The position numbers and the translations under genes are program-made. 49,644 bases of DNA from a virus: positions 1-49,644 of the IMG/VR virus record IMGVR_UViG_3300033571_004463, one strand, 5' to 3'. Positions within the stretch are counted from its first letter, which is position 1; every line of letters begins with the position of its first letter. The notes under the pieces were generated by a model that was not told the DNA's origin, did not search any database, and saw only the letters and a list, made by a program, of their open reading frames with translations. Shown piece after piece: positions 663 through 36,500 of the stretch.

Positions 663-694
663 TTTGCAATTTCATTTTGTTCTTGGTATATTTG
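663..694 (+). promoter_or_regulatory. groEL operon promoter
   Basis: TTTG (663-666), a 20-base spacer and TATATTTG (687-694) match the Bacteroidota sigma-A promoter well. The start codon of groEL follows 19 bases later, leaving room for a short leader. No Shine-Dalgarno sequence is visible. Confidence 0.75.
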
Positions 695-713: not shown

Positions 714-2345
714 ATGGAATTTAAGTCAACAGGAATGTACAGTCCCAAGGACTTGACCTTGGGGGATGAAGGCAGAGCCCGACTGATGAATGGCATCAGG
801 AAGATGGCTTCTGCTGTGAAGAGTACTTTAGGGCCGAGTGGTAAGACGGTCTTGATTGAGGGCGCTGATGTGATTGGCGGATTGACGGTGACCAAGGATG
901 GTGTTACTGTTGCCAACTCGATTCAGTTGTTAGACCCGATTGAGAACCTTGCGGTTCGTATGTTACGTGAGGCGAGCAGCAAGACTGCATCATCTGCGGG
1001 TGATGGTACGACGACTGCTGTTGTGTTAGCCGAGGCGTTAGTTGCTTATGGCATGGAGATTTTGGAAGCGCATCCTGCGGTGAACCGCACGGAGGTGTTG
1101 CGCAAGTTGGTGGAGATAAGCAATGAGGTGGTGGAGGATTTGAGAAGGATGGCTCGCAAGCTTCGTAAGCGTGAGCTCTTGGACGTAGCCATTATCTCAG
1201 CGAACAATGACAAGGTGATTGGCAAGACGATTGCTGACGTGTACGGTAAGGTTGGCGCTGATGGCATTGTGATGGTTGAGAACTCTCAGACTCCTGACAC
1301 CTACTACGAGGTAACGAACGGATTGCGGATTGACAAGGGTTACTTGTCTCCTGTGTTTGTGACGGACATGAAGCGTGATGAGTGCGTGATGAATGACGTG
1401 TACGTATTGGTTGCTGACATGGAGATTGAGAACGTGTTGCAGATTGAGCGTGTGTTGAAGCACGTGATTGAGGCGAACAAGTCGCTGTTGATTATTGGGC
1501 CTTGTGGTCAGATGATGTTGAACACATTGGGTGCGAACAAGGTGAAGGGTCGCATTAAGGTTTGTGCTATTGACGCGCCGAGCTTTGGCTACCGTCAGAA
1601 TGAGTTGATGCAGGACATTGCTTTGAGCGTTGGTGCGAAGTACTTCAGCCACCGCACGGGTGATGACTTGAGCATCATTGGCCCTGAGGACTTGGGTTAT
1701 GTGAGCAAGGTGACTGTTGGTAATGACAAGACGGTGATGGTGGTGAGTGATGCCAATCGTGATGGTGAGGCAGTGGCTGAGCGCATTGAGCAGCTGCGTG
1801 GTGCTCACACTGAGGCGGTGAAAAAGGGCGATAAAGATTTTATCATGTCTCGCATTGCGATGTTATCGGGCAGCATTGGTGTTATCTTCGTTGGTGGTAA
1901 CACTGACCTTGAGCAGAAGGAATTGTACGACAGGATTGACGATGCCGTATGCGCTGTTCGCTCCGCTCTTGAGGAGGGCATTGTTGCGGGCGGCGGTAGT
2001 GCATTGTACTACGAAGCCCGTAGGCTTGAAAGGAAGCTCTCTGCTGAGACTTCTCCCACCTCGGCATACACTATTGCCACCAAGATGATTATGCACGCTC
2101 TACGCTCCCCATTTTTAACCCTCGTTGACAATGCGGGTTATGAGCCATCTACTCCTGACGAGCGTGTTGGTGAGTGGGGGTATGGATGGAACATGCGTGA
2201 CGGTTCGTTTGGTAACTTGTACGACATGGGTGTGATTGACCCGTTGAAGGTAACTCGCAGTGCGTTGCAGAATGCGGTGAGTGTTGCGGTGACGGTGTTG
2301 AGTACTGACGCGATTATTACATTAGCGAGAACATATGAGTCATAG
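714..2345 (+). CDS. groEL: Phage-encoded chaperonin GroEL (Cpn60)
   Basis: This is a 543-residue group I chaperonin subunit that would form the ring folding cage for phage or host proteins in the cytoplasm. The ATP-site signatures are present: TLGPSGK (38-44), KDGVTVA (61-67), LLDP with the D52 equivalent (72-75), GDGTTTA (96-102), and the catalytic-Asp region before EEGIVAGGG (420-428). KVTRSALQNA near the C-terminus is also typical. The apical domain is clearly divergent, and the Gly-Gly-Met tail of bacterial GroEL is absent, the protein ending in TLARTYES. The stop overlaps the next start. The order groEL then groES is opposite to the usual bacterial operon. The visible ATPase motifs suggest an active enzyme. 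Confidence 0.95.
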   Translation: MEFKSTGMYSPKDLTLGDEGRARLMNGIRKMASAVKSTLGPSGKTVLIEGADVIGGLTVTKDGVTVANSIQLLDPIENLAVRMLREASSKTASSAGDGTTTAVVLAEALVAYGMEILEAHPAVNRTEVLRKLVEISNEVVEDLRRMARKLRKRELLDVAIISANNDKVIGKTIADVYGKVGADGIVMVENSQTPDTYYEVTNGLRIDKGYLSPVFVTDMKRDECVMNDVYVLVADMEIENVLQIERVLKHVIEANKSLLIIGPCGQMMLNTLGANKVKGRIKVCAIDAPSFGYRQNELMQDIALSVGAKYFSHRTGDDLSIIGPEDLGYVSKVTVGNDKTVMVVSDANRDGEAVAERIEQLRGAHTEAVKKGDKDFIMSRIAMLSGSIGVIFVGGNTDLEQKELYDRIDDAVCAVRSALEEGIVAGGGSALYYEARRLERKLSAETSPTSAYTIATKMIMHALRSPFLTLVDNAGYEPSTPDERVGEWGYGWNMRDGSFGNLYDMGVIDPLKVTRSALQNAVSVAVTVLSTDAIITLARTYES

Positions 2346-2571
2346 GCTACACATAGAGAAGCGGGTGAGTTTGCCTCAGTTTGAGGCAGCTTGCCTTGGC
2401 GTTACCATGGATGGGGAGCGCAAGATTTATTCATGCAATGGCATTATTAAAATCCTTGAGCATGACGGATTATCGCTTGACGACGCAGTTGAGCATTTGT
2501 ATCAAAAAGTAATTCAGTATTGGGAGGGAACTAATGGCTCTCCTATATTTGTTTGGGAGGACGGAGAATGA
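2335..2571 (+). CDS. Unknown protein between groEL and groES (78 aa)
   Basis: I do not recognise this 78-residue protein. It overlaps the groEL stop by 11 bases and its own stop overlaps the groES start (ATGA), so the three genes look translationally coupled. It is mixed alpha/beta in appearance, with one central helix-like segment (LSLDDAVEHLYQKVIQYW) and two Cys residues, and no membrane segment. The position suggests a chaperonin accessory factor, but nothing in the sequence proves that. Confidence 0.75.
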   Translation: MSHRLHIEKRVSLPQFEAACLGVTMDGERKIYSCNGIIKILEHDGLSLDDAVEHLYQKVIQYWEGTNGSPIFVWEDGE

Positions 2572-2843
2572 AACCAATTGGAAAATATATTGTCAGTCAG
2601 TTGATTGACGAGGAGGTGGAGACAGCCTCAGGCTTGGTGTTATCGGGAGATGACGTTGACAACCTTCGGTATCGAAAAGCAACTATTGTGAAAGTAGGCT
2701 CTGACGTGAAGAATATCACGGATGGCAGTGTCATTTACTTTGACAAGGTGCAGAGCTTTACGATGGTGATTGACGGGAATCAGTACACTATTCTTCGTGA
2801 GACTGACGTAGTTCTTGTTCTAAGCGAAGGGTCTCCCGTTTAA
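2568..2843 (+). CDS. groES: Phage-encoded co-chaperonin GroES (Cpn10)
   Basis: This is a 91-residue Cpn10, the lid of the GroEL cage. It has the expected layout: an N-terminal strand with MKPIGKYIV, the mobile loop with ETASGLVLSG (the IVL-type hydrophobic anchor is LVL), the KATIVKVGSDV strand, and a C-terminal barrel with DGSVIYFDK and DVVLVL. An ATG at 2553 is in frame, but the start at 2568 gives the canonical N-terminus and overlaps the upstream stop as ATGA with GGAG just before it. The gene's end overlaps the end of the opposing wHTH gene by 56 bases. Confidence 0.88.
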   Translation: MKPIGKYIVSQLIDEEVETASGLVLSGDDVDNLRYRKATIVKVGSDVKNITDGSVIYFDKVQSFTMVIDGNQYTILRETDVVLVLSEGSPV

Positions 2844-3252
2844 TTTTAAATACGTACTCCCTCATGGAGTCGAAGCTTTTAGGGACTCGTTTTAGGCGTG
2901 CGGCTCTGTCGCAATCTGAGACGAGTCTTCTTCCTTCTAGCAGGCTGTAGAAGTATTGAACGACATTCTTACCCTTTTTTGAGATTTGGTATAGGGTCAA
3001 GTCAGGTTCAAAACATTTAAGCTTTTCATTTCGTTTCTTAACAACTTCGACGTATCCATTATCTCTGAGATAGGTGAGGGTTGAGGGATGGAAGTTATTC
3101 AGCTTACGCCACATGTCCATGCTCTTGTAGGAGAACACTCCTTCGGAGTAGATGAAGACGAGGCCGTCTAATAGGTGTGGCTTTTCAATATTGTATTTCA
3201 CGCGAACGTACTTGCGAAATACGTTATAGTATTTGAGGTAATCTGATTTCAT
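2788..3252 (-). CDS. Putative winged-helix (MarR-like) regulator
   Basis: This 154-residue protein is read leftward against its neighbours. The central part looks like a winged helix: a helix around LNNFHPSTLTYLRDNGYVEVV (recognition helix then wing strand), a beta hairpin, then LTLYQISKKGKNVVQYFYSLLEG, the motif that ends many MarR/PadR-like wHTH domains. The C-terminus is highly basic and helical. Its promoter overlaps that of the divergent endolysin gene, so autoregulation and control of the lysis and small-gene operon is a reasonable inference. The exact family is not certain. Confidence 0.65.
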   Translation of the reverse strand: MKSDYLKYYNVFRKYVRVKYNIEKPHLLDGLVFIYSEGVFSYKSMDMWRKLNNFHPSTLTYLRDNGYVEVVKKRNEKLKCFEPDLTLYQISKKGKNVVQYFYSLLEGRRLVSDCDRAARLKRVPKSFDSMREYVFKIKRETLRLEQELRQSHEE

Positions 3253-3305: not shown

Positions 3306-3758
3306 CAGATTATCGCCAAGTACGGCAAGCCTGACGATGATGGTAGTGACTATTTGGTTACGATTCAGTTGCCGTATCCTATGCGTTTGGCGTGGGACAC
3401 CAAGACGGTAGTGACCAAGATGCGTTGCCATACCATTGCGGCTGATAAGTTTTTGGCGGTATTCAATGAGCTCCTTACCACTTATGGCATTGACGAGATT
3501 AAGCGTTTGGGCATTGACCTGTTTGGTGGATGCTTCTCGTTTCGTAAGATGCGTGGTGGCAATGAGTACTCGCGCCATTGTTGGGGCATTGCTATTGACC
3601 TAGACCCATCGAGGAATACGTTAAAGCAGAGCAGCAAGACGGCGCAGTTCGCAAAGCCTGAGTACAAGAAGATGATTGACATTTTCTACAAGCATGGCTT
3701 TATCAACTACGGTCGTGAGCGTAATTTTGATTTTATGCACTTTGAATTGAAGAACTAA
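3291..3758 (+). CDS. Endolysin, M15-type L-Ala-D-Glu/D-Ala peptidase
   Basis: This 155-residue protein should cut the peptide part of peptidoglycan during lysis. The zinc site of the VanY/peptidase M15 group is visible: SRHCWGIAID at 94-103 (H96, D103) and FMHFE at 149-153 (H150, with E152). The length fits single-domain phage endopeptidases of the T5 type. There is no signal peptide, so it would need the holin to reach the wall. The holin and spanin candidates lie 4 kb downstream. Confidence 0.88.
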   Translation: MLTTKQIIAKYGKPDDDGSDYLVTIQLPYPMRLAWDTKTVVTKMRCHTIAADKFLAVFNELLTTYGIDEIKRLGIDLFGGCFSFRKMRGGNEYSRHCWGIAIDLDPSRNTLKQSSKTAQFAKPEYKKMIDIFYKHGFINYGRERNFDFMHFELKN

Positions 3759-3913
3759 TGGCTAAGGGTAATAAGATTTGCAAGGCGGGGATTGATTGGG
3801 CGAAGCGGACGTTTGACCGTTACCCATCTGCGTATGCCAACATGGCTGCGTCGAAATATTGCAAAGACCCGAACTATGCCAAGGGTAAGAAGACTGTTAA
3901 AAAGAAGAAGTGA
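3758..3913 (+). CDS. Small basic protein (51 aa)
   Basis: This gene starts at the ATG overlapping the endolysin stop (TAATG) and encodes 51 residues, very rich in lysine, ending in KKTVKKKK. The segment AYANMAASKYCKDPNYAK is typical of tiny basic proteins seen in several phage groups, function unknown. The charge suggests nucleic acid binding or a minor virion component. It is the first of a run of overlapping micro-genes. Confidence 0.65.
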   Translation: MAKGNKICKAGIDWAKRTFDRYPSAYANMAASKYCKDPNYAKGKKTVKKKK

Positions 3914-4167
3914 TGGGTGAGTTGAAGAAATGGCGGGATGAGAAGTGGGTTCGTATTGGGACGGGCGGAAAGATTATGGGGGAGTGTGGTACGAGTCCGA
4001 ACAAAAAGAATCCCGACCGTTGCTTACCTTTGAAGAAGGCTAAGGCGTTGTCACAGAGTGAGCGTGCTGCCACTGCTCGGCTGAAGAAGTCAAAGGGTGG
4101 TAGCGGCCGTCAGTTCGTGAGCAATACAAAAGAAGCAAAAGTAACCTCTAAATACACAAAGCGATGA
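3913..4167 (+). CDS. Small basic Cys-containing phage protein (84 aa)
   Basis: The ATG at 3913 overlaps the previous stop (TGATG); a GTG at 3910 is a less likely start. The 84-residue product has a W-V-R-I start strand, two Cys, then RCLPLKKAKALSQSERAA and a Ser/Lys-rich tail. This layout resembles a small basic protein family (DUF5872-like) found in marine and freshwater phages. The function is unknown. Its stop overlaps the next start. Confidence 0.7.
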   Translation: MGELKKWRDEKWVRIGTGGKIMGECGTSPNKKNPDRCLPLKKAKALSQSERAATARLKKSKGGSGRQFVSNTKEAKVTSKYTKR

Positions 4168-4280
4168 AAAAAATGATGATGTCCGAAAAAGCTTCCATGA
4201 AAAAGAACGGAGCTAAACCTATGGCGAAGAAAGCTATGGCGAAGAAGGCAGTGGCAAAGAAGATGTCTAAGTCCTGCTAA
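4164..4280 (+). CDS. Lys/Ala/Met-repeat peptide (38 aa)
   Basis: This 38-residue peptide is almost entirely K, A and M, with three tandem units of the type MAKKA/VAKKM and a terminal Cys. Its start overlaps the upstream stop (ATGA) and its stop overlaps the next start (TAATG), which supports translation. The composition resembles histone H1-like or DNA-compacting tails. It could be a DNA-condensing or packaged peptide, which is inference. Confidence 0.55.
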   Translation: MKKMMMSEKASMKKNGAKPMAKKAMAKKAVAKKMSKSC

Positions 4281-4570
4281 TGGCTGACAAGTCAAAGATG
4301 AAGTGCAATTCCCCTGTCAAGTCAGACCGACAGGGGAAGAAGCGCATGGTCAAGGCTTGCAGTGGAGGTACTGAAAAGCTAATCCACTATGGCGCAGAGG
4401 GTTATGGTAATAACTACTCACCTGCTGCGCGCAAGAGTTTCAAAGCTCGGCATAGTTGTGACACGGCTAACAACAAGTTAACTGCTAGGTATTGGTCATG
4501 CAAAGATTTATGGGGAGGTAAAGGTGGTCACACTACAGCTAACCCTAAAAATAGAAAAGGAAAGTATTGA
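4280..4570 (+). CDS. Conserved small basic phage protein (96 aa)
   Basis: This 96-residue, strongly basic protein has the order MKCNSP, GTEKLIHYGAEGYGNNYS, ARKSFKARHSCDTANNKLTARYWSCKDLWGG. The ARKSFKARHxCD...ARYWSCK block recurs in small proteins of many phages and giant viruses with no known function. Four Cys residues suggest metal binding or disulfides. It overlaps the preceding peptide gene by one base. Confidence 0.75.
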   Translation: MADKSKMKCNSPVKSDRQGKKRMVKACSGGTEKLIHYGAEGYGNNYSPAARKSFKARHSCDTANNKLTARYWSCKDLWGGKGGHTTANPKNRKGKY

Positions 4571-4571
4571 C

Positions 4572-4579
4572 TATCTTTG
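4572..4579 (+). promoter_or_regulatory. Bacteroidota -7 promoter box
   Basis: TATCTTTG lies seven bases before the ATG at 4587, directly after the previous stop. There is no clear -33 box. The short distance implies a leaderless or nearly leaderless transcript. Confidence 0.55.
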
Positions 4580-4586
4580 TGGTGTT

Positions 4587-4769
4587 ATGGCGAAAGTAAT
4601 AGTTACAGTCAACAAGAGTCGTGGCTTGGGTGATACCATTGCAAAGTTCACGCAAAAGACGGGCATTGATAAGATGGCTAAGAAGATGGCGCAGGCTGCA
4701 GGCTATGAGGACTGCGGTTGTGATGCTCGTCGTGATACGCTTAACAGAGTTTTTCCATACAGTAAATAA
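4587..4769 (+). CDS. Conserved small protein with CGC-RR motif (60 aa)
   Basis: The start at 4587 (MAKVIV) follows a promoter box and gives a 60-residue protein. Its signature is GLGDTIAKFTQKTGIDKMAKK followed by DCGCDARRDTLNRVFPYSK, a pattern I associate with small proteins beside fibre genes in Bacteroidota phages. The CxC and Arg pair may bind metal or nucleic acid, but no function is known. Confidence 0.75.
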   Translation: MAKVIVTVNKSRGLGDTIAKFTQKTGIDKMAKKMAQAAGYEDCGCDARRDTLNRVFPYSK

Positions 4770-20193: not shown

Positions 20194-21120
20194 TTGATGG
20201 CGTATTTATCTCAATACCAATACTATGCCAATGAAGGCAACGCTCCCGAAGATGCTAATTGGGGGTCATATCAGTATGTATCACTAGCTGACATCGTCAA
20301 CAACTTTATGTTGATGTATGCGGGCAACCATTCATTGGTAAATAATGAAGAGCGATTTAAGGTTTTATTCCATGCGAAGCGTGCTATCCAAGAGCTCAAC
20401 TATGATGCGTTCAAAGAAATTAAAGTCCTTGAACTTAATGTTGATGATAGGCTTAGATTTATATTGCCTAGTGATTACGTTAATTGGGTTCGCATTTCAT
20501 TGTACAAAGATGGATATATTCGTCCTTTGACGGAGAACATTCAGATTATGAGTGCAAATGCCTATCTTCAAGATAACGCAGGGCGCATCCTATTTGACCA
20601 AGAAGGAAATATCTTAAGACCTGAGGATTCAAATCTTGACTACGACAGAATTATTGGCTCTCAGAAGAGTATCTACCTAAATAGGAACAGCCAATTTGAT
20701 GGATTTGAGGGATACTTTGTTGATGGCAATTGGTACTTTGATTATGCCATTGGTGCAAGGTTCGGGCTTAATACTGAGACGGCTAACTTCAATCCTACAT
20801 TTAAGGTTGATAGCAAGAAAGGCGTTATCAACTTCAGCTCAGACATGGCAGGAGAGGTTTGTCTTCTTGAGTACATCTCTGATGGCATGGAGAGTGGTGA
20901 CGATAGCCTGATTACGGTAAACAAATTATTCGAGGCGTTCATCTACGCGTATATCAGATATGAGATTTTGAATAGTAAGTTTGGCGTTCAAGAATACGTT
21001 GTTAGTAGAGCAAGAAAAGAAAAGTCAGCGCTATTGCGCAATGCAAGAATTAGAATTAGCAATATCAAGGCAGGTCACTTGTTGATGAACTTACGTGGAC
21101 GCGATAAATGGATTAAGTAA
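20194..21120 (+). CDS. Collar/ring protein 2 (308 aa)
   Basis: The annotated start gives 308 residues; MAYLSQYQYY, one codon later, is equally plausible. It has the connector signature FKVLFHAKRAIQELNYDAF, LELNVDDRLRFILPSDYVNWVRISLY and a C-terminal helical segment ending in a basic tail. This layout is shared by tail tubular A-like and crAss-like ring proteins. Its stop overlaps the start of the nozzle gene by one base. Confidence 0.72.
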   Translation: MMAYLSQYQYYANEGNAPEDANWGSYQYVSLADIVNNFMLMYAGNHSLVNNEERFKVLFHAKRAIQELNYDAFKEIKVLELNVDDRLRFILPSDYVNWVRISLYKDGYIRPLTENIQIMSANAYLQDNAGRILFDQEGNILRPEDSNLDYDRIIGSQKSIYLNRNSQFDGFEGYFVDGNWYFDYAIGARFGLNTETANFNPTFKVDSKKGVINFSSDMAGEVCLLEYISDGMESGDDSLITVNKLFEAFIYAYIRYEILNSKFGVQEYVVSRARKEKSALLRNARIRISNIKAGHLLMNLRGRDKWIK

Positions 21121-24100
21121 TGGCGAATCTGTCTAGGAATTTTATTCAGGGTAGGATGAACAAATCCCTCGATGAGAGGGTTATCCCTAATGGTGAGTAC
21201 ATTGATGCGCTTAATATCAGGATGGGCTCTACTGAGTTATCTGAGGTTGGCGTTATTGAGAACTCAAGAGGGAATACTCAGCTTACTCAGATTGTTTACG
21301 ATGCAGTGCCATTGTCAGAAAATGCCGTAACTATTGGTACTTATGCGGATGCGGCACGAGAAACCATCTATTGGTTTATTACTGACTCATCTTGGGGTGG
21401 TAAAATTGATATGATTGTGTCATTGAATGTACTGTCAAATGACTTTACATTTCACGTTGTATCTAAAAGTGTATTAGCTTTTGATGCCCAATATCCTATG
21501 CTGTCAATTGATATGATTGACGATTTGCTATTCTTTACAGACAATTTCAATCCTCCTAGGTTTATTAACGTCAAGCGCTCATATCCTTTGCCAATTAGTG
21601 GCAATGACCAAATTACAGCAGAGGAGTTGATGGTAATTAAGCGACCACCTATTACTGCTCCTACTTTCAATTTGTTTCAGAGTCCTAGCAAAGATAACTT
21701 CTTAGAGGAGCGATTCATTTGTTTCGCTTACAGATACAGATATGCTGATGGCGAGTTCTCTGCTACCTCTCAGTTCAGTGAGCCTGCGTTCTTGCCGAAG
21801 TCATTTGACTTCAGCTTGAGCAGTTACTTGAATGAGGGTATGATTAATGCCTTCAATGCTGTCAATGTTATTTATGACTCAGGCGGCCCGCTTGTAAAGA
21901 GCATTCAGTTACTATTCAAAGAGGCGGGAGGAAATATCATTCGTGTTATTGAGACATTGGATAAAGCTCAGTTGGGATTGTCTAACAGTACAACTTACAC
22001 CTATGAGTTTAACAGCAGTAAAATATTTACAATTTTACCTGAGTCTGAATTACTAAGGCTTTATGATAACGTGCCTATCAAGGCGGCGGCTCAGACAATC
22101 ATGAGCAATCGCTTGATGTATGCCAACTATGAGGAGGGATATGATTTAGTTAATCTTGAATCAGGGAATCCTGTTAAGCTTAGATTAGACTACTCTACTA
22201 CATTATCCTCTGCACCTTTAATTGGTGAAGCTATTGTTCCCACAATAGAATCGTCTACTTATACCATTGATGTAACTACGGCCATTGATGAATCTAAGAT
22301 TGTCATTGATTTAGGTGGCATCGCTTTGAGTGATGGCAATGTACTAAACATCTTCTTTTCGTTTCAACACTCTGAGTTTTCAAATGACGCTGTATTTGGT
22401 GAATCAAATTTAGGTGGCAATGTGTCATTTGAGTTTAGGATGAATAGAAACTATGACTCAGTATATGACTTGGTTACAAGTGCTGAGTTCCAAAGTGCTA
22501 TTGGTATCACATCAAATATTCAAGACCCTCAAGATGCTTGTGATGGGAATACCACCACTGACTCGGTCAACTGCTTGATTAATGACTTGGTTGGTATTGG
22601 AGCTGTAACTACTTGGTATAAATATGCGAGTGGCATCTCTGCTGTTAACGAGGGGATTGGCATTAGTGCATCTGTTGGTAGCACATCATTCTCTCTTCAG
22701 ATTATTGCTATGAAATTTGTTGATGACCTAGATACGCCTACTCAATTTGAGTACGAGTATTACACGGTTACATCAGCATCTTGCAATATCGGCGCTACGT
22801 CATACCCTAAGAGCTTGCACAGCAATCGTAACTACGAGGTGGGTATCATTTATATGGATGAGTTCAATCGTTCGTCTACGGCGCTCGTATCGTCAAATAA
22901 CACGGTGTATGTTCCATGCACTTCGTCTGACAAACGCAATCAGATTATTGTCAATATCCCTCCAACACAAAAGCCACCATATTGGGCGAAGCGATATAAG
23001 TTTGCTATTAAAGCTGACAGAGAAGGGTATGAGACTATCTATGTTAACTATGCCATTCAAGATGCTGACGGGTTGTTCTATTACTTCTTAGTTGAGGGGG
23101 AGAACGCTCGTAAGGTTGTTGAGGGTGATAGACTTACTGTTAAGTCAGATGCCAATGGCGTAGTCAAAAGTTGCACTTATGCTACTGTGCTTGAGAAAGC
23201 TGCTCAGCTTAGTAACTTCTTGGGTGAAGCTATTACATCTCCTGCAGGAGTGTATATTAAAATCGACGCTAAAGATATTTCAATCAGTAGCGGTGGGGTG
23301 TTAGAATTTACTAACGGAAGAGTTGGAGAGACCACGTCAGCCCCAAATCAAAATGTTTATTATACTGTAAATAATTACAATGGAACTTCTTACGATGATT
23401 TCATCATATATACAGGAGCTCAGATTAAGATTAAGATAACAGCAAAGAGAAGGTCTGATTGGATTTGCGGCAGCAGTCGAGATGAGAAGTCTTATGTATT
23501 CGACAAATCATTTACAGCTTCAAGGGAATATGCCAACTTTAAAGAGTGGTGGGATGGAGATGCGGCTTACAATGCATTATCAAATGCAGATGTAGTTCAA
23601 TCCCCATGCGATGGGTGTACAACATTCCCAATCAATTACAATAGCACTATTGCGGGCTCTATGACAATTAGCCCAAATGCTTGTGGTTTAAATTTCCAAT
23701 TCTACCGAAATGGAACAAACAACCAATTGATATTAATGATATCTAGCTTAGCAAATCCTTTAGGGGCGCTTGCTGAGTTTACATTGTTTGCTACTATTGA
23801 GATTCAGAATGGTCAGAACTTAGTGGTATTTGAGACTGAGCCATCTGATACGTTGCCTGACGTGTTCTATGAGTCTGATGAATCGTATCCTATTACAGAT
23901 GGATTTCACGTTGGTAATGTGCAGACGCAGACATCTTCTCAAGATGCCATCATCAATACAGGGTTCTTCAATTGCTACACGTTTGGTAATGGCGTTGAGT
24001 CCTATAAGGTACGTGACTCTATTGTTGCTAAGACATTTGGATTGGGCAACCGAGTATATACTACCTCGGCGCAGGAGTATAAGCGTGCCATGCGATTCGC

Positions 24101-25661
24101 TGACATCACATACAGTGGTATCTATAACAATGAATCAAACATCAACAGACTGAATGAGTTTAACTTGGGGCTTCTTAACTTCAAGAACCTTGAGCAATCG
24201 TTCGGGCCTATTCGTGTGATTGACTCACGTCAGACTGACGTATTGGTATTGCAAGAAGACCGCATCTCATACGTCCTTGCAGGAAAGAACTTACTTTCTG
24301 ACTCTGCAGCAGGCGGAGCGATTGCATCTGTTCCTGAAGTATTAGGAACGCAGATTGCCCGCTCTGAAAAGTATGGCATCAGTGATGAACCTCTTTCTTA
24401 TGTTCAGTGGGGGACGAATAGATTCTTCTCTGACTCTAAGCGAGGTGCTATCATCATGATGAATGATGCATCGCCTGCTGACATGAGTGGCAAAGAAACT
24501 TTAGTACCAATATCTGAGTTGGGCATGCGCTCTTGGTTCAGGGATTTGTTTAACGATTCAGTAGATACATTTAAGCTAGGAGGGTTTGACCCATACTTGA
24601 ATGAGTATGTGTTTACGTCTACAAACCGACTTAAGCCATCTCAGGATGTATGCTCTGACTGCGGTATCACTAAATTGTTCTCTTCTCCAATCACTGAGTA
24701 CTGTGTTACTCTTGGACAAACTACAGGTGAAGTGACAATAGATTATGCGCCAATCGGTGAAGTTGAAGAGTTCACTGTTACTGTTGTGTATGATGAAACA
24801 ACATATACAAGTGGCCCAACTTCTACGGCAGGTCAGATTGTATTTGAAAAGGATTTGGTAAATGATACAAAGTGCTTTGTTTCTATTGACCAAGGAAATG
24901 TTCAGTTTACTGCTAGCTGTGTTGATTCTAATCAAGTTAGTATTGTTCAAGTAGTTGTGTCTAACAATTCAAATGCGGGTCAGTTCCTTCATGTTCAATA
25001 CAATTATGAAAGTGGCTCATACATTTCTCCGTTGCAGACAACGTATGTTCAGCTTCAGCCGTTTACAGGAGTTGAGAATATTGTTTCTCTTTATGAGGTA
25101 AGAGAGCCTGCGTCTGAAGGAAGTGCGGGTGTACCTAATAATGGAGCTGATGTAAATATCATAATGAATAAGTTCAGCTCTGACAATTTTATTTTCTCGA
25201 CATCAGATAAAGTTAGATATTTCCAAAACGATTCATTATTCTCTGACTCTCCTGAAGATATTCAGGCCCTATTGAACGATTCAACTCCATTGTCACCTGC
25301 ATTTGTTGGAACAAACAAGAAAGTTGGTACATTTGAATATACTAGTGGCCAAAGCTACTTGTATTTAGTTTGGGATTTGCGTGGATACACATCTCACACA
25401 CTTTGCTACTCTGATGTAAGTGCAAGCGATGCATGTTGCGAATGTACTGTTTGTGGTGACGAAGAGACTTGTCCCAAGTTTACCATTCAAGCTCCTGACG
25501 AAGAAGCAACATCTTTCTACTACACTCCTTGTGGTGGTTCAATGGTATCATATAATTTGTCTGCGGGAGAAGAAGTAACTTTGTGCTCTGAGACATACCC
25601 TGCATTTGGCGAAGGCGATACAGGGACTGTAACATTTGTTCAATGTAATTGCGATTTATAA
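21120..25661 (+). CDS. Tail nozzle/muzzle protein (P22 gp10 or crAss muzzle type)
   Basis: This 1513-residue protein begins NFIQGRMNKSLDERVIPNGE, then YIDALNIRMGSTELSE and IENSRGN. That start is characteristic of the large beta-propeller nozzle proteins that close the tail tube after packaging. The body is beta-rich throughout. Late segments contain FGPIRVIDSRQTDVLVLQED and YAGKNLLS-like propeller strands. The C-terminus is Cys-rich (DACCECTVCGDEETC), probably a separate small domain. It is followed by tail-tip genes. Confidence 0.8.
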   Translation: MANLSRNFIQGRMNKSLDERVIPNGEYIDALNIRMGSTELSEVGVIENSRGNTQLTQIVYDAVPLSENAVTIGTYADAARETIYWFITDSSWGGKIDMIVSLNVLSNDFTFHVVSKSVLAFDAQYPMLSIDMIDDLLFFTDNFNPPRFINVKRSYPLPISGNDQITAEELMVIKRPPITAPTFNLFQSPSKDNFLEERFICFAYRYRYADGEFSATSQFSEPAFLPKSFDFSLSSYLNEGMINAFNAVNVIYDSGGPLVKSIQLLFKEAGGNIIRVIETLDKAQLGLSNSTTYTYEFNSSKIFTILPESELLRLYDNVPIKAAAQTIMSNRLMYANYEEGYDLVNLESGNPVKLRLDYSTTLSSAPLIGEAIVPTIESSTYTIDVTTAIDESKIVIDLGGIALSDGNVLNIFFSFQHSEFSNDAVFGESNLGGNVSFEFRMNRNYDSVYDLVTSAEFQSAIGITSNIQDPQDACDGNTTTDSVNCLINDLVGIGAVTTWYKYASGISAVNEGIGISASVGSTSFSLQIIAMKFVDDLDTPTQFEYEYYTVTSASCNIGATSYPKSLHSNRNYEVGIIYMDEFNRSSTALVSSNNTVYVPCTSSDKRNQIIVNIPPTQKPPYWAKRYKFAIKADREGYETIYVNYAIQDADGLFYYFLVEGENARKVVEGDRLTVKSDANGVVKSCTYATVLEKAAQLSNFLGEAITSPAGVYIKIDAKDISISSGGVLEFTNGRVGETTSAPNQNVYYTVNNYNGTSYDDFIIYTGAQIKIKITAKRRSDWICGSSRDEKSYVFDKSFTASREYANFKEWWDGDAAYNALSNADVVQSPCDGCTTFPINYNSTIAGSMTISPNACGLNFQFYRNGTNNQLILMISSLANPLGALAEFTLFATIEIQNGQNLVVFETEPSDTLPDVFYESDESYPITDGFHVGNVQTQTSSQDAIINTGFFNCYTFGNGVESYKVRDSIVAKTFGLGNRVYTTSAQEYKRAMRFADITYSGIYNNESNINRLNEFNLGLLNFKNLEQSFGPIRVIDSRQTDVLVLQEDRISYVLAGKNLLSDSAAGGAIASVPEVLGTQIARSEKYGISDEPLSYVQWGTNRFFSDSKRGAIIMMNDASPADMSGKETLVPISELGMRSWFRDLFNDSVDTFKLGGFDPYLNEYVFTSTNRLKPSQDVCSDCGITKLFSSPITEYCVTLGQTTGEVTIDYAPIGEVEEFTVTVVYDETTYTSGPTSTAGQIVFEKDLVNDTKCFVSIDQGNVQFTASCVDSNQVSIVQVVVSNNSNAGQFLHVQYNYESGSYISPLQTTYVQLQPFTGVENIVSLYEVREPASEGSAGVPNNGADVNIIMNKFSSDNFIFSTSDKVRYFQNDSLFSDSPEDIQALLNDSTPLSPAFVGTNKKVGTFEYTSGQSYLYLVWDLRGYTSHTLCYSDVSASDACCECTVCGDEETCPKFTIQAPDEEATSFYYTPCGGSMVSYNLSAGEEVTLCSETYPAFGEGDTGTVTFVQCNCDL

Positions 25662-30527: not shown

Positions 30528-33500
30528 ATGAACGAACAAGCGATTAAAGACTCGTATGAATTGTTTAAAAGCGGCGGGTATAGCAAGTCAATTGATGAGT
30601 TTAAATCTCTGATAGCTTCTAATCCTCAGGCTCTAAATGATTCGTATGAATTATTTAAAAGTGGTGGGTATAGCAAGGATTTTGATTCTTATAAAGCGCT
30701 AATGGGCTTAACTGCTCAACCTGCGCCTGCTCAACCTGATAAAAAAAAAGTCGCTACGGCATTACCCTCGGCAGCGTCTTCATCGGAATCTGTTTCGACT
30801 AGACCAACAGAGCCAACAATCGCTACGAGAAAGCCTCAGACTACATCGTTTGGTACTTATGGCGTATCGAAGCCTCAGCCATCTACTGCTGCCTTTACGA
30901 AGCCTGTAGCGCCTGAGCCTGAGTCAATCTTAGGGCCTGTTGAGAAAGACGTGTCTGTTAAAAGAGACATCTCTGTCAATCCAAAACCGCTGCCTGCTGT
31001 TGCTCCAAAGACAACTGAGGTATCTAACTACTTCGATAAGTCACTTGACATTATTAATGAGGACTTGATGAACTCTGAAGAGAGTATGGTCGTACCTAAG
31101 CTGAACTACACGTTCGGGCAGTATGGCTTCAAGTTCTCTGAGGCAGGGCCAATGTTTGATGAGGTGAAAGTAATTTCGCCAAATGGGAAAGAGGAAGTGT
31201 TCAGCCTTGACAATTGGTTCAGCAGCTCAAGCTCTGAGGAAGCTGCTCGATTCAAGAAATTCATTAGCGAAAATAAGCCAACAAGTAAATTGTTAGAGGC
31301 TCGTGAAGGTCAATATGCTAAGCCAATCCTTAGTGAGGAGCAGTCAAAAGAAAATATCCTCAAGATAAATGCCGACACTGAATCTTTGAGCAAAGATATT
31401 AGTGAGTACACTCGTTTAGAAAATGAGCTGAATGCTCGGTTGAAAAACATTGAGTCGTTAACTCCTGAGCAGAAGACTGCATTGTTGCAATCAACATCAG
31501 CTTTGGAATTAAAAAGATTGGAAGTAATTCGTAAAGGAGAAGACATTCAGTCTCGTACCAAAATGCTCAATCAGGAGCTTGGTAATTATTCTAAGATGAA
31601 AGCCGAACAAGGAACTCCGATTGGTGCGCTTTGGAACTCAGTATTTGTTAATGGTATTGGCAGTGCTGTTAGTGGCCTTCTTAGAACATTAGGTGCATCG
31701 CAATCATTTGGCAATCCTGCCATGGAAACTGCGATGAAAGCTGCAGTTAAGCGAGGTGATTTTAATAAGCCACGTGAACTTCTTCAAGCTACGATTGGCG
31801 CAGAGTCAACGAGCAAAGAGTACATTGAAGATGTTAAGCAGAAGTCTTTCTTGGGCGGAGCTGTTTTGGGAGTTGCAGAGTCATTGCCTGCTATGTTAGC
31901 AGGGCCTGCGTCATTGCCTGCGCTTATATCTCAAGGCGCTGATGTGGTATATCAAGAGATTGATAAGAATCCTGATGCTCAAGATATGCCCGAATGGAAA
32001 AAGGCATTGTTTGCAACTACAATTGGTGCGGTAGCAGGTTACTTAGAGAATTTGGGTTTCTCGAATGCTATTGGGCAGAAGGGATTGCTTAATGGTCTTG
32101 TTGCCAAGTTCTTCGCACGTGGAGCTACAAATGTAAGTGGCAAAGCATTCAATGAGTTTGTTGACCAAGAGGTAAAAAGCTTGATTGCTAAGGGCGTTCT
32201 TAGAACTACTGCGGGGGGATTGGCCGAAGCTGAGACAGGGGTTCTTCAGGAGATTTCTGACGTTGGCTTAAAGGAAGTGTTTAATGCCATTGAAGGTAAT
32301 AAGACATTTGAAACGCCTGAGAGTGCGGGTCAATTTGCTTTGCAAGTTCTTGAGGCGGGAGCATCTGAGGCTGTTGGTGGTATTATCATGAACTCTGTCG
32401 GAGCTGTGAGCAAAGGATACCAAGAGAATAAGTTTGAGAATGTTCTTGATGAACAAGTTAATCTATTGCACCAAATCTCATCTGACCCTACGTTCATTGA
32501 TTCCTATAAGTTGAAGATTAAGGAAGCTGTTGCCGAGGGCAAGATGACTACTGAAGAAGGGGAAAATCAAAAGGCTTCATTTGATAAGATGATTGGGCAG
32601 CTACGCTCAATCCCAAGTGACATTTCTCCTGCGGGACAGAAGGAGGCACTTCGTCTATTGAAGGAAAGAGATGCGCTACAAGCTAAGATTGATAGCTCAG
32701 ACCCTGACTTAGTTACGAGAGAGAAAGCTCGCGTTGCCGAGATAAAAGAAAAGTTAAACAAAATATCTGAAGATTATGCCGTTCAAAAGCCAAGCACAGA
32801 GGAAAGCGTGTTACGCGATGAAGAGTCCCAAGTGGGATTGCAAGAAATGGGAGAAGGAAACGCCAAAGGGCAAGCCGCTCCCCAAGAAGATAAAGCCTAT
32901 GTCACAGCGCAAGAAGTAAATGATAACGTAGCAAAGGCAAATCCTGATGCTAGTGTATTGTTAACTCCTGATGGCGATAACTTGAGCCTGACTGCTGTTT
33001 ATATAGGCAAGGAGAATCGTGGCAAGGGCATAGGGACAAATGTCCTTAATACTGTAAAGTCAGAGGCTGATAGGGTAGGCAAAAAAATAGTTTTAGATGC
33101 CACAAATGAATTGGATTCTGAAACTGATTTAGAAAGATTAGGTAATTTTTACGAAAGGAATGGATTCAAAAGAGTTGGTGAAAACAAATTTGAATACGCC
33201 CCACAAGAAACTGTAGCCCAAGAAGAAGTAGCTGCCGAGCCGTTAGAGCAAAAGTCAAGTCGATTGCTTGATGCTATTGACACTGCACGTCAGGCAGGTA
33301 CTGATGGCATTGATGCTTTGAACAGCGCTTTGGCAAACCTTAGAGGCATTGCATCTGAGCGAGTGAAGCAGATTGGTAATAGGATTGATGACTTACAACA
33401 GAAGGTTCGTGACTTAACCAAGTCATCTACTGTTCCTTCTGCTACTCTATCCGACTTAGCAGGAACGCAAGTAAACTACAATGGAGAGTCAGGTACATTG

Positions 33501-36500
33501 AATGTATCTGAGGGTGGTGCTGTTACATTTGAAACGCCCAATCAGATCATTGAGATTGAGAATGCTACGCCAACATCAATGGCATCAGACTTCAATATCG
33601 CTGCGCCCAAGCCTGCTATGGAGATTACTCCGACTACCGACCGATTCATTGACAACGACAATGTAGTCATCAATAATATTGAGTATGGCATTCAAGCTGA
33701 TAACAATGGTAATGTTGTTGGCTTACAACTCAAGGACGGAAGCAATCAGGTATTGACCAACCCACAGCTTTTAGTTAAGGCAGAGGCCATCAGAAATACT
33801 GAGGGTAAAGTTGCTATTACAACTGAGACGACCATCACTCCTGAAGCTCAATCACAGATTGACGCACTTAATGGTCAGATTGATGCGCTTACAAATGAGC
33901 GTGGCAGAATTGAGCAAGCTACTGCTGAGCCTGTCACTGCTGAGGCTACGCCAACTGCAGCAGAGAAAAGATTTGCAGGGAATGTACTTGCTGCTACTCG
34001 TGTTGCAGCTGAAGATTTGGGCAAGTTGGTAGCAATACTAACCAAGGCAAATAAGAATGTAAAGGTTGTTACTGATAAGGCCAAGATGGTTGCCTTCCTT
34101 GTTAAGAAGGGCTTATCTCCTGAGCAGGCTAATCAAGTGAAGGGCGTTCGCGTTGGCGATACTGTTTACATCAACCCTGATTTGGCAACTGTTGACACAC
34201 CTATCCACGAGTTTGCGCACATTTGGGGTGAGCTTTGCAAGAAACAGCGTCCTGAGTTGTGGAAGCGTGGGCTATCCTTAATTACCAAGTCAAACTACTA
34301 CAAGGATTTGTTGGCGAAAATCAAGGCTGACCCTAATATGTCAAAGTTGTACCCTACTCCTGAGGCTATCAAGGAAGAGGCTTTGATTCAGGCTATTGGT
34401 GAGCGTGGTGCTGTCATCTTTGACGACAATAAGTTGCAGTTGTTGTGGAACAATTGGGTTGCTGCGTTTGATAACTTCGTGAAGAAGCTATTGGGACTTC
34501 CGATGACTGCCGACATCACGAAGATTAAGCTCAGCGAGTTCTTAGATATGGCTGCTACTGAGGTGTTGACAGGTAAAGGAACAGGTGTCGGTGGTGAGAT
34601 GACCATTGAGAAGACCAAGGCTGCGAAGGACTTTGAGTTTCAAGTTGAGGCTTGGCATGGTAGCCCACATAGATTTGACAAGTTCTCATTATCAAAGATG
34701 GGAACAGGAGAGGGAGTTCAAGCATTTGGTTGGGGGTTGTATTTCACTGACCTAAAGAATATTGCAGAAGGTTATGCTAAAAACCTAAGCCAAACTACCT
34801 TTGATGGTAAGCCATTAGACGAGTTAGATTTTTTTGAAAACCTTTTAGGCTCATTAGATGCAGAATCTGATGAGTTTTACAATTTAGATAAAGGCACAAT
34901 AACTAATCTTAAAAAATTTAAGGCGTACATTGATAATTCTGTTGAAAAATTGCAGCAAGATATCCTTAAGATAAATAAGGATAATGTTAAATATCAAAAT
35001 TTAGCAGATAAATACAGTTATCAGGATGTAAGTAAGGATAAATTAAAAGCAGATATTGAAATACATAACCAATTTAAGCAAGTAGCCAATGCTTCTTTGG
35101 ATAAAGAAGACATGGTTAATAAAGCTTTACCTACATTTAAAGCAAAAGCAGATGCTGCCCGTAAGATGATTATGGAAATAAATAAAGGTAAAAGCAACAG
35201 GGAAAATATACTGCAATCTATTCTTGATTATGATTACAGAAGAGCCAATAGTACGCTTAATTATTACAAATACATAAAAAACAACTTTGATAAGTTTAAT
35301 CTTTCACGTAATCTTTACAATGTATCACTTCATGAAGGCAAGACTCCTGACCAATACACTTTCTTGGAATGGGATAATTCTGTAAGCAAAAAAATTAAAG
35401 ATATTGTAAAAAATAAATTAACAGAAGAGCAGTACAAAGAAGGGTTTTATGATGTTATAAAATCACTTGATATTAGTGAGGAGAGATATATTAGAAACGG
35501 GGAAGATTTGTACAATGGTCTTGTGTTAGCATTGGGTTCGCAAGAGGCTGCATCAAAATTTCTTTTAGAAAACGGCATTGATGGCATCAAATATCCTGCT
35601 GAGTCAATCTCTCGTGGCGCTACATCAGACACAGCAAGAGGGTTTAACTATGTAGTGTTTGATGAGAATGCCGTTAAGATTCAGGAAGCTATTCAATTCC
35701 AAGCTCAGCAGTCAGCCAATGACCTCGCTAAGATTGTCAATGACGCTATCAAGGCTAAGCTAACAAAGACTCAGATTGTTGACATCTTGGTTAAGCGTGG
35801 TGGCTTAACAGCTACCGAGGCAAACCAAGTGTACAATGACGTTAAGGCTAAGAATCCTATCTCAATTGCAACAGCAGGCACAACTCCTGCCGCTACCACT
35901 ACCACTGTAAAGCCGAAGAGTAAGTTCGTTGACAACATCGCCAATGCTATTGAGCAAATGGCAGGTGGTAATGTAACCCCTGAGGTGAAGGACGCTATCG
36001 TTAAAGAGATTAACACCGCTCGTCAAGCCATCAAGAAAGCTCTCATGTCTGAGATGGCATTGAAAAAGCAACTCGCTTCTATCGTAAAATCACTTGGTGT
36101 CTCAAACAAAATCACTGCGACACAGGCCAAGTCAATCATCACTGCATTCAGTAAAGTGAATGTGATGAGCGATTCATCTGTCAATAATTTTATCGACAAG
36201 GTGATGGACATCTTTGATAAGGTAAATGCCAAGACAGAAGCTGAGAATCGTTCCTCGCTTATCAGCAGTATTGCTGACCTTGCTAAGAAGGCTGCCCGTT
36301 CTGCCGTTACATCTACAGGTAAGTCACGTGCTAAATCATTGGATGCCGTAGGACAAAGCTTCTTCAGGCAAGTAAGCAAGATTGTAACGCTTGCCGCGAA
36401 TAATGACATCAATGGCATGGCCGTTATCTCTAATGACTTGGCGAATGCTCAGAATGAAATCAATGATGCCGTTCAGAAGGAGCTTAATGGCGAGCAATTG

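Follow-up and report, generated by a model that had tools for sequence, protein, structure and literature searches.

A phage chaperonin operon with groEL ahead of groES, a variable slot at their junction and a conserved convergent gene

Introduction

The co-chaperonin gp31 of phage T4 lacks roof loops, and the wider opening that results is thought to aid the folding of the large capsid protein gp23; its flexible loops have also been reported to be longer than those of GroES (22 versus 16 residues; PMC6318259). Chaperonins of phages infecting Bacteroidota were already known before this study as well, with Nishimura et al. (2017, PMC5332604) having reported GroEL from 36 genomes assigned to putative Flavobacteriaceae phages.

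The deposited genome closest to the one analyzed here is Caudoviricetes sp. ctfjg026 (MW202828), whose GroEL, GroES and terminase are 53%, 51% and 75% identical, respectively. It has the same convergent gene, annotated as 'repressor protein', but is devoid of the gene that lies between groEL and groES in our phage. The Elemovirus isolates, which are phages of Flavobacterium sp. BAL314, share with our phage a related large terminase, a groEL that is directly followed by groES, and a convergent gene behind groES, which encodes the MarR-like gp45 (E = 1e-32). However, their groEL/groES junction is empty, and their GroEL is only 34% identical to the one described here. Cellulophaga phage Calle_1 (Pervagoviridae), another phage of Bacteroidota, encodes Cpn10 and GroEL with a small gene in between but does so in the canonical order, Cpn10 followed by GroEL. 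The gene in between (positions 2226-2498 of Calle_1, L287) is hypothetical and different from that of our phage, and a search for a MarR-like gene near the Calle_1 chaperonins did not identify one.

Here, we describe the chaperonin locus of the IMG/VR virus record IMGVR_UViG_3300033571_004463, for which the whole stretch of 49,644 nucleotides (hereafter, the window) was analyzed. The locus is a phage chaperonin operon of a known kind in a lineage-specific form.

Results

Organization of the locus

The following features were assigned to the locus:

663-694, plus strand: Bacteroidota-type promoter, TTTG-N20-TATATTTG, ahead of groEL (pattern match)
714-2345, plus strand: groEL, 543 aa (Pfam PF00118, PHROG groEL, residue check against E. 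coli GroEL, tree)
2335-2571, plus strand: 78-aa slot gene, diverged member of the family phrog_13182 (profile matches, AlphaFold model)
2568-2843, plus strand: groES, 91 aa (Pfam PF00166 Cpn10, AlphaFold model, roof-loop gap in the alignment)
2788-3252, minus strand: probable MarR-like winged-helix gene, 154 aa, convergent to groES and overlapping its 3' end

A preceding sequence-only reading of the window had described groEL, the 78-aa open reading frame (ORF) and groES as overlapping translationally behind a single promoter, and our coordinates agree with this description. An overlap of 11 nt leads from groEL into the 78-aa ORF and one of 4 nt (ATGA) from there into groES, an arrangement that may couple the translation of all three genes. 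The start codon of groES is most likely the ATG at position 2568, with the program-assigned TTG at position 2553 being less likely. Since approximately 0.9 matches per strand to the promoter pattern are expected by chance after mononucleotide shuffling of the window, the weight of this assignment rests on the position of the element and on its conservation, as it is preserved in the two nearest relatives, L005 and L006. Purifying selection was detected for all three genes when the window was compared with its three nearest relatives, with dN/dS values of 0.08-0.24 for groEL and 0.03-0.28 for groES, the latter being based on low counts. For the 78-aa ORF, dN/dS ranges from 0.13 to 0.32 (low counts), and both its frame and its overlaps are common to four genomes. 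Therefore, we consider it a real gene. Elsewhere in the window, two very long ORFs (21120-25661, 1,513 aa; 30528-39002, 2,824 aa) were observed downstream of the genes for terminase and portal.

The phage GroEL and its roofless GroES

The groEL product matches Cpn60_TCP1 (PF00118) over residues 32-536 (E = 6e-61) as well as the PHROG groEL family (E = 2e-131). Two features that had been noted from the sequence alone were corroborated by the comparison with E. coli GroEL: the ATPase motifs are intact, including D52, D87 and D398 (E. coli numbering), the T30-P33 loop and the GDGTTT loop, and the GGM tail, a common but not required trait of group I chaperonins, is missing, with the C-terminus reading ...LARTYES. 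The aligned viral clade lacks the GGM repeats likewise. The divergence of the apical domain, which had also been pointed out, is real yet only mild, with 33% identity to E. coli GroEL compared to 40% in the equatorial domain. On the apical face, the position corresponding to L234 of E. coli is occupied by glutamate in all ten members of the viral clade that were checked, including the window, but not in the bacterial copy L202 or the GroELs of Elemovirus and Calle_1; positions Y199, F204, L237 and L259 are still hydrophobic. With 430.8 bits, the protein scores below the NCBI cut-off of 582 bits for TIGR02348, the equivalog model of bacterial GroEL, but passes the wider subfamily models PRK12849 and PRK00013. 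These model scores thus characterize it as a group I chaperonin that does not appear to be a standard bacterial GroEL. The ring-ring contact residues R452, E461, S463 and V464 are poorly conserved among phage GroELs, which we did not accept as evidence for a single-ring GroEL.

The groES product matches PF00166 (Cpn10, E = 2e-9), and its AlphaFold model (pLDDT 91) adopts the Cpn10 fold, aligning with Thermus Cpn10 (4v4o) at a Z-score of 11.2 (rmsd 2.0 over 84 residues) and with T4 gp31 at a Z-score of 8.8. While the hydrophobic segment of the mobile loop is retained (SGLVL, aligning to GGIVL), the roof loop, which is typical of but not required for Cpn10 co-chaperonins, is deleted in the window and in the aligned relatives when compared to E. 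coli and Thermus Cpn10. A co-chaperonin fold without a roof loop is thus common to this protein and T4 gp31, but gp31 pairs with the GroEL of its host, whereas the GroES of the window is accompanied by a phage GroEL of its own. By analogy, the roofless GroES of this phage may serve a gp31-like purpose.

Gene order and phylogenetic position

The sequence-only reading had drawn attention to the order of the two chaperonin genes, which is reversed with respect to bacterial operons. We found groEL ahead of groES in 109 of 109 non-redundant viral loci of this GroEL clade showing both genes, a set in which viral contigs identified by GroEL similarity were pooled with chaperonin loci from a scan for the phrog_13182 family. 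Given that the same order is present in the deposited Elemovirus isolates from Flavobacterium, it is a lineage trait already represented among deposited genomes. Thus, the reversed order is real and fixed within this phage lineage, but it is not peculiar to this phage. Immutovirus and Pervagoviridae run in the opposite order, with groES followed by groEL.

The large terminase is closest to that of MW202828, and the next matches are exclusively phages of Flavobacterium, Cellulophaga, Tenacibaculum and Maribacter. Together with the Bacteroidota-type promoter, these relatives indicate Bacteroidota hosts, as would be expected if the cassette had lately been acquired from a host operon and rearranged afterwards. 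However, in the phylogenetic analysis that had been proposed for the chaperonin, the window GroEL groups with viral copies in a clade of 110 rows with a support of 100, well apart from the bacterial GroELs that the tree contained, and it is 53-73% identical to other viral copies compared to about 35-40% to bacterial ones. On the basis of this tree, in which bacteria were represented by a few GroELs only, we regard a recent host origin as very improbable.

The 78-residue protein

A Pfam search with the 78-aa ORF and a PDB sequence search with its product returned no match, and the best match among the PADLOC models for anti-phage defence was partial (E = 0.045), with none for its relatives. Close copies of the protein, with 77-90% identity, are encoded in three contigs. 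The protein itself matches the profile of phrog_13182 weakly (E = 5e-6), and a profile-profile comparison of its small clade with this family (hhalign) yielded an E-value of 4e-10 and a probability of 97% over 66 columns. Furthermore, the homologue from L009 matches the family with E = 4e-7, and the slot proteins of other relatives do so with E-values of 1e-18 to 1e-21. Most members of phrog_13182 contain the motifs DGFDxAxxG and GAYVGExTP, which in the window copy read PQFEAACLG and YWEGTNGSP with the spacing retained. The window copy, a very long branch in the family tree, has the family sequence and predicted fold without the GFDDAIIG and GAYVGE signatures. As the profile match holds in spite of the diverged signature letters, we filed the protein under phrog_13182 as a diverged member of this widespread small phage family. 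Shewanella phage Thanatos-1 was considered as a source of a further relative, but the match (E = 0.3 over 41 residues, without the family signature) was attributed to chance.

Structure prediction, which had been suggested as a way to characterize the protein, resulted in an AlphaFold model with a pLDDT of 83, whose matches in BFVD (E = 1e-4) are uncharacterised proteins of phages. Against PDB folds, Foldseek returned no match with an E-value below 0.8, and a second comparison gave Z-scores of at most 3.8. While the model thus connects the protein to other phage proteins, nothing solid was found in the PDB, so that its function cannot be derived from its fold.

More than 500 stretches of the phrog_13182 family were detected in viral contigs, and 44 isolate phages, mostly Bacillus Herelleviridae, carry a member. 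In the isolate phages sampled, its neighbors are not chaperonins, and it adjoins Cro-like regulators; in phage DSL-LC04, it is located between primase and helicase. Among 49 phrog_13182-bearing records, which were picked because there is no chaperonin within 3 kb of the family gene, 48 were found to be devoid of Cpn60 when the whole record was checked. Away from chaperonins, most neighbors with a recognizable identity are primase/helicase, DnaB or recombinase genes.

A variable slot between groEL and groES

Across 166 unique loci, the junction between groEL and groES is empty in 95 and filled in 71, the latter by genes from 41 unrelated clusters. The junction is thus a variable slot, either empty or holding one of many unrelated small genes, and the occupants that can be named include PhoH, Tad2-like (anti-Thoeris), GldL_N, RyR-domain, crAss001_48-like and Zn-ribbon proteins. 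The Tad2-like (Thoeris anti-defence 2) gene fills the slot of L132 (4124-4375), showing that the slot is able to carry anti-defence cargo. In L149, a PhoH-like ATPase is encoded in the slot (4077-4733), and its cluster is represented in five slot loci. L126 has a RyR-domain protein at this place (3659-4006), with a similar protein in the slot of L259 (3040-3390), and the slot gene of L154 (4036-4431) carries, in a phage, the N-terminal domain of GldL, which belongs to a gliding motility family.

The commonest single occupant is phrog_13182, which was found in 24 loci from several separate lineages, a count that is inflated since two of the scans were seeded with this family. In three differently seeded samples, it occupies the slot in 8 of 23, 7 of 77 (GroEL-seeded scan) and 3 of 76 loci (MarR-seeded scan). 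An estimate that about a quarter of the slots hold phrog_13182 was rejected in view of the latter two values, because the early samples had been seeded by phrog_13182 or by the nearest kin of the window. The trio of genes, for which a search in other phages had been suggested, hence recurs in several lineages but in a minority of loci.

Linkage of the 78-residue protein to the chaperonin

The sequence-only reading had proposed that the 78-aa protein may be a new chaperonin partner, and had named in advance, as the observation that would speak against this, the lack of the gene from relatives that keep groEL and groES. The gene is indeed absent from most such relatives, and its family is a common one that mostly occurs without chaperonins, so that the proposal of a dedicated partner finds no support here. 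It is kept partly alive by the placement of the family within chaperonin-bearing contigs: when 77 GroEL contigs were searched over their whole length, 13 were found to carry phrog_13182, and in 11 of these 13 it is located in the slot, with one further copy just downstream and one approximately 12 kb away. By our own rough estimate, random placement would put fewer than one copy in the slot. About seven lineages remain if obvious near-copies are counted once. Moreover, the slot state changed at least 12 times on a quick GroEL tree, and the slot members do not form one clade on the phrog_13182 tree (AU test, p = 0.014, from 85 columns with long branches). The family is thus drawn to, or kept at, the groEL/groES junction above chance, yet it is optional.

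These observations can be read in different ways. If the 78-aa protein were a modulator or an obligate client of the chaperonin, repeatedly recruited to the junction so that it is produced in step with it, one would expect the positional preference described above, which is reproduced in a separately seeded sample (slot location in 7 of 7 contigs with both genes). In the surveyed loci, phrog_13182 was encountered upstream of groEL in no case and downstream of groES once, and the rejection of a single slot clade as well as the purifying selection on the 78-aa gene are in line with such a role. However, the many members without any chaperonin, the low occupancy among groEL-groES loci and the many unrelated genes in the same slot make this reading unlikely. 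We would give equally little credence to the broader proposal that phrog_13182 members, which elsewhere act as general early-gene proteins of phages, have repeatedly been recruited as modulators of the phage's own chaperonin to the junction of a cassette whose constant core comprises groEL, a groES without roof loop and a MarR-like regulator in convergent orientation.

Somewhat less doubtful, though still not what we would expect, is that the junction is neutral and simply tolerates insertions, with phrog_13182 being present as an abundant and mobile small gene that gains no benefit in expression. The 41 unrelated occupant clusters and 95 empty slots fit this reading, as does the abundance of the family, whose members are often tightly packed between genes (34 of 80 loci) and can have primase/helicase neighbors. 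On the other hand, phrog_13182 is the commonest occupant, even if its count is partly inflated by the family-seeded searches, and it is nearly absent from other junctions in the same loci. Such a neutral junction would be a stricter form of the explanation that we favor, according to which the 78-aa protein is exchangeable cargo drawn from a family that is widespread among phages; a true chaperonin link has a minority chance.

A convergent, probably MarR-like gene accompanies the cassette

Of the 109 groEL-groES loci that could be assessed, 106 have a homologue of the convergent gene close to groES. In 87 of these 106, the gene is encoded on the opposite strand, mostly tail-to-tail with groES and with a median overlap of about 34 nt, while in a sister clade (19 loci) it is located downstream on the same strand. 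A reciprocal picture emerged when the search started from the MarR-like gene: a convergent groES was present in 77 of 78 assessable loci, with groEL behind it in all but one, although these loci derive from the best 80 matches, i.e., those closest to a chaperonin-linked member, and more distant members may exist elsewhere. The MarR-like gene is therefore a constant third gene of the cassette that the sequence-only reading had missed. Its conservation greatly exceeds that of the 78-aa gene, and by this measure the label of a partner fits the convergent gene.

All 16 aligned members match phrog_17028, and eight of the 16 match a PHROG family of transcriptional regulators. While no Pfam family is consistent across members, the best PDB profile matches are MarR regulators. 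With an E-value of 0.006, these matches make a MarR-like winged helix the likely, though unproven, identity of the product. Its position and likely fold suggest that it may regulate the operon.

Discussion

Taken together, the locus probably represents a phage-borne group I chaperonin operon that is characteristic of one lineage among the phages of Bacteroidota, with a variable slot that in this phage is occupied by a phrog_13182 member as a non-constitutive accessory. According to this explanation, GroEL and the roofless GroES would assist the folding of phage proteins in the course of infection, capsid proteins being an example, and the MarR-like protein would regulate or bound the operon. 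The 78-aa protein would be an accessory infection protein that makes use of the expression of the operon without being a constitutive part of the chaperonin.

What is added here to the known chaperonins of these phages is the anatomy of the module: the gene order is reversed and fixed, the co-chaperonin has no roof, a slot for cargo separates the two chaperonin genes, and a convergent gene is almost always present. In the literature that we searched, a limited set of open papers that was not directed at the convergent gene, we did not come across descriptions of the slot or of this gene. In the light of our results, a chaperonin partner should be sought in the product of the MarR-like gene and no longer in the 78-aa protein. 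Furthermore, this anatomy, whose convergent regulator-like gene is also present in the cultured Elemovirus, offers an experimental handle on how a phage may control its own folding machine.
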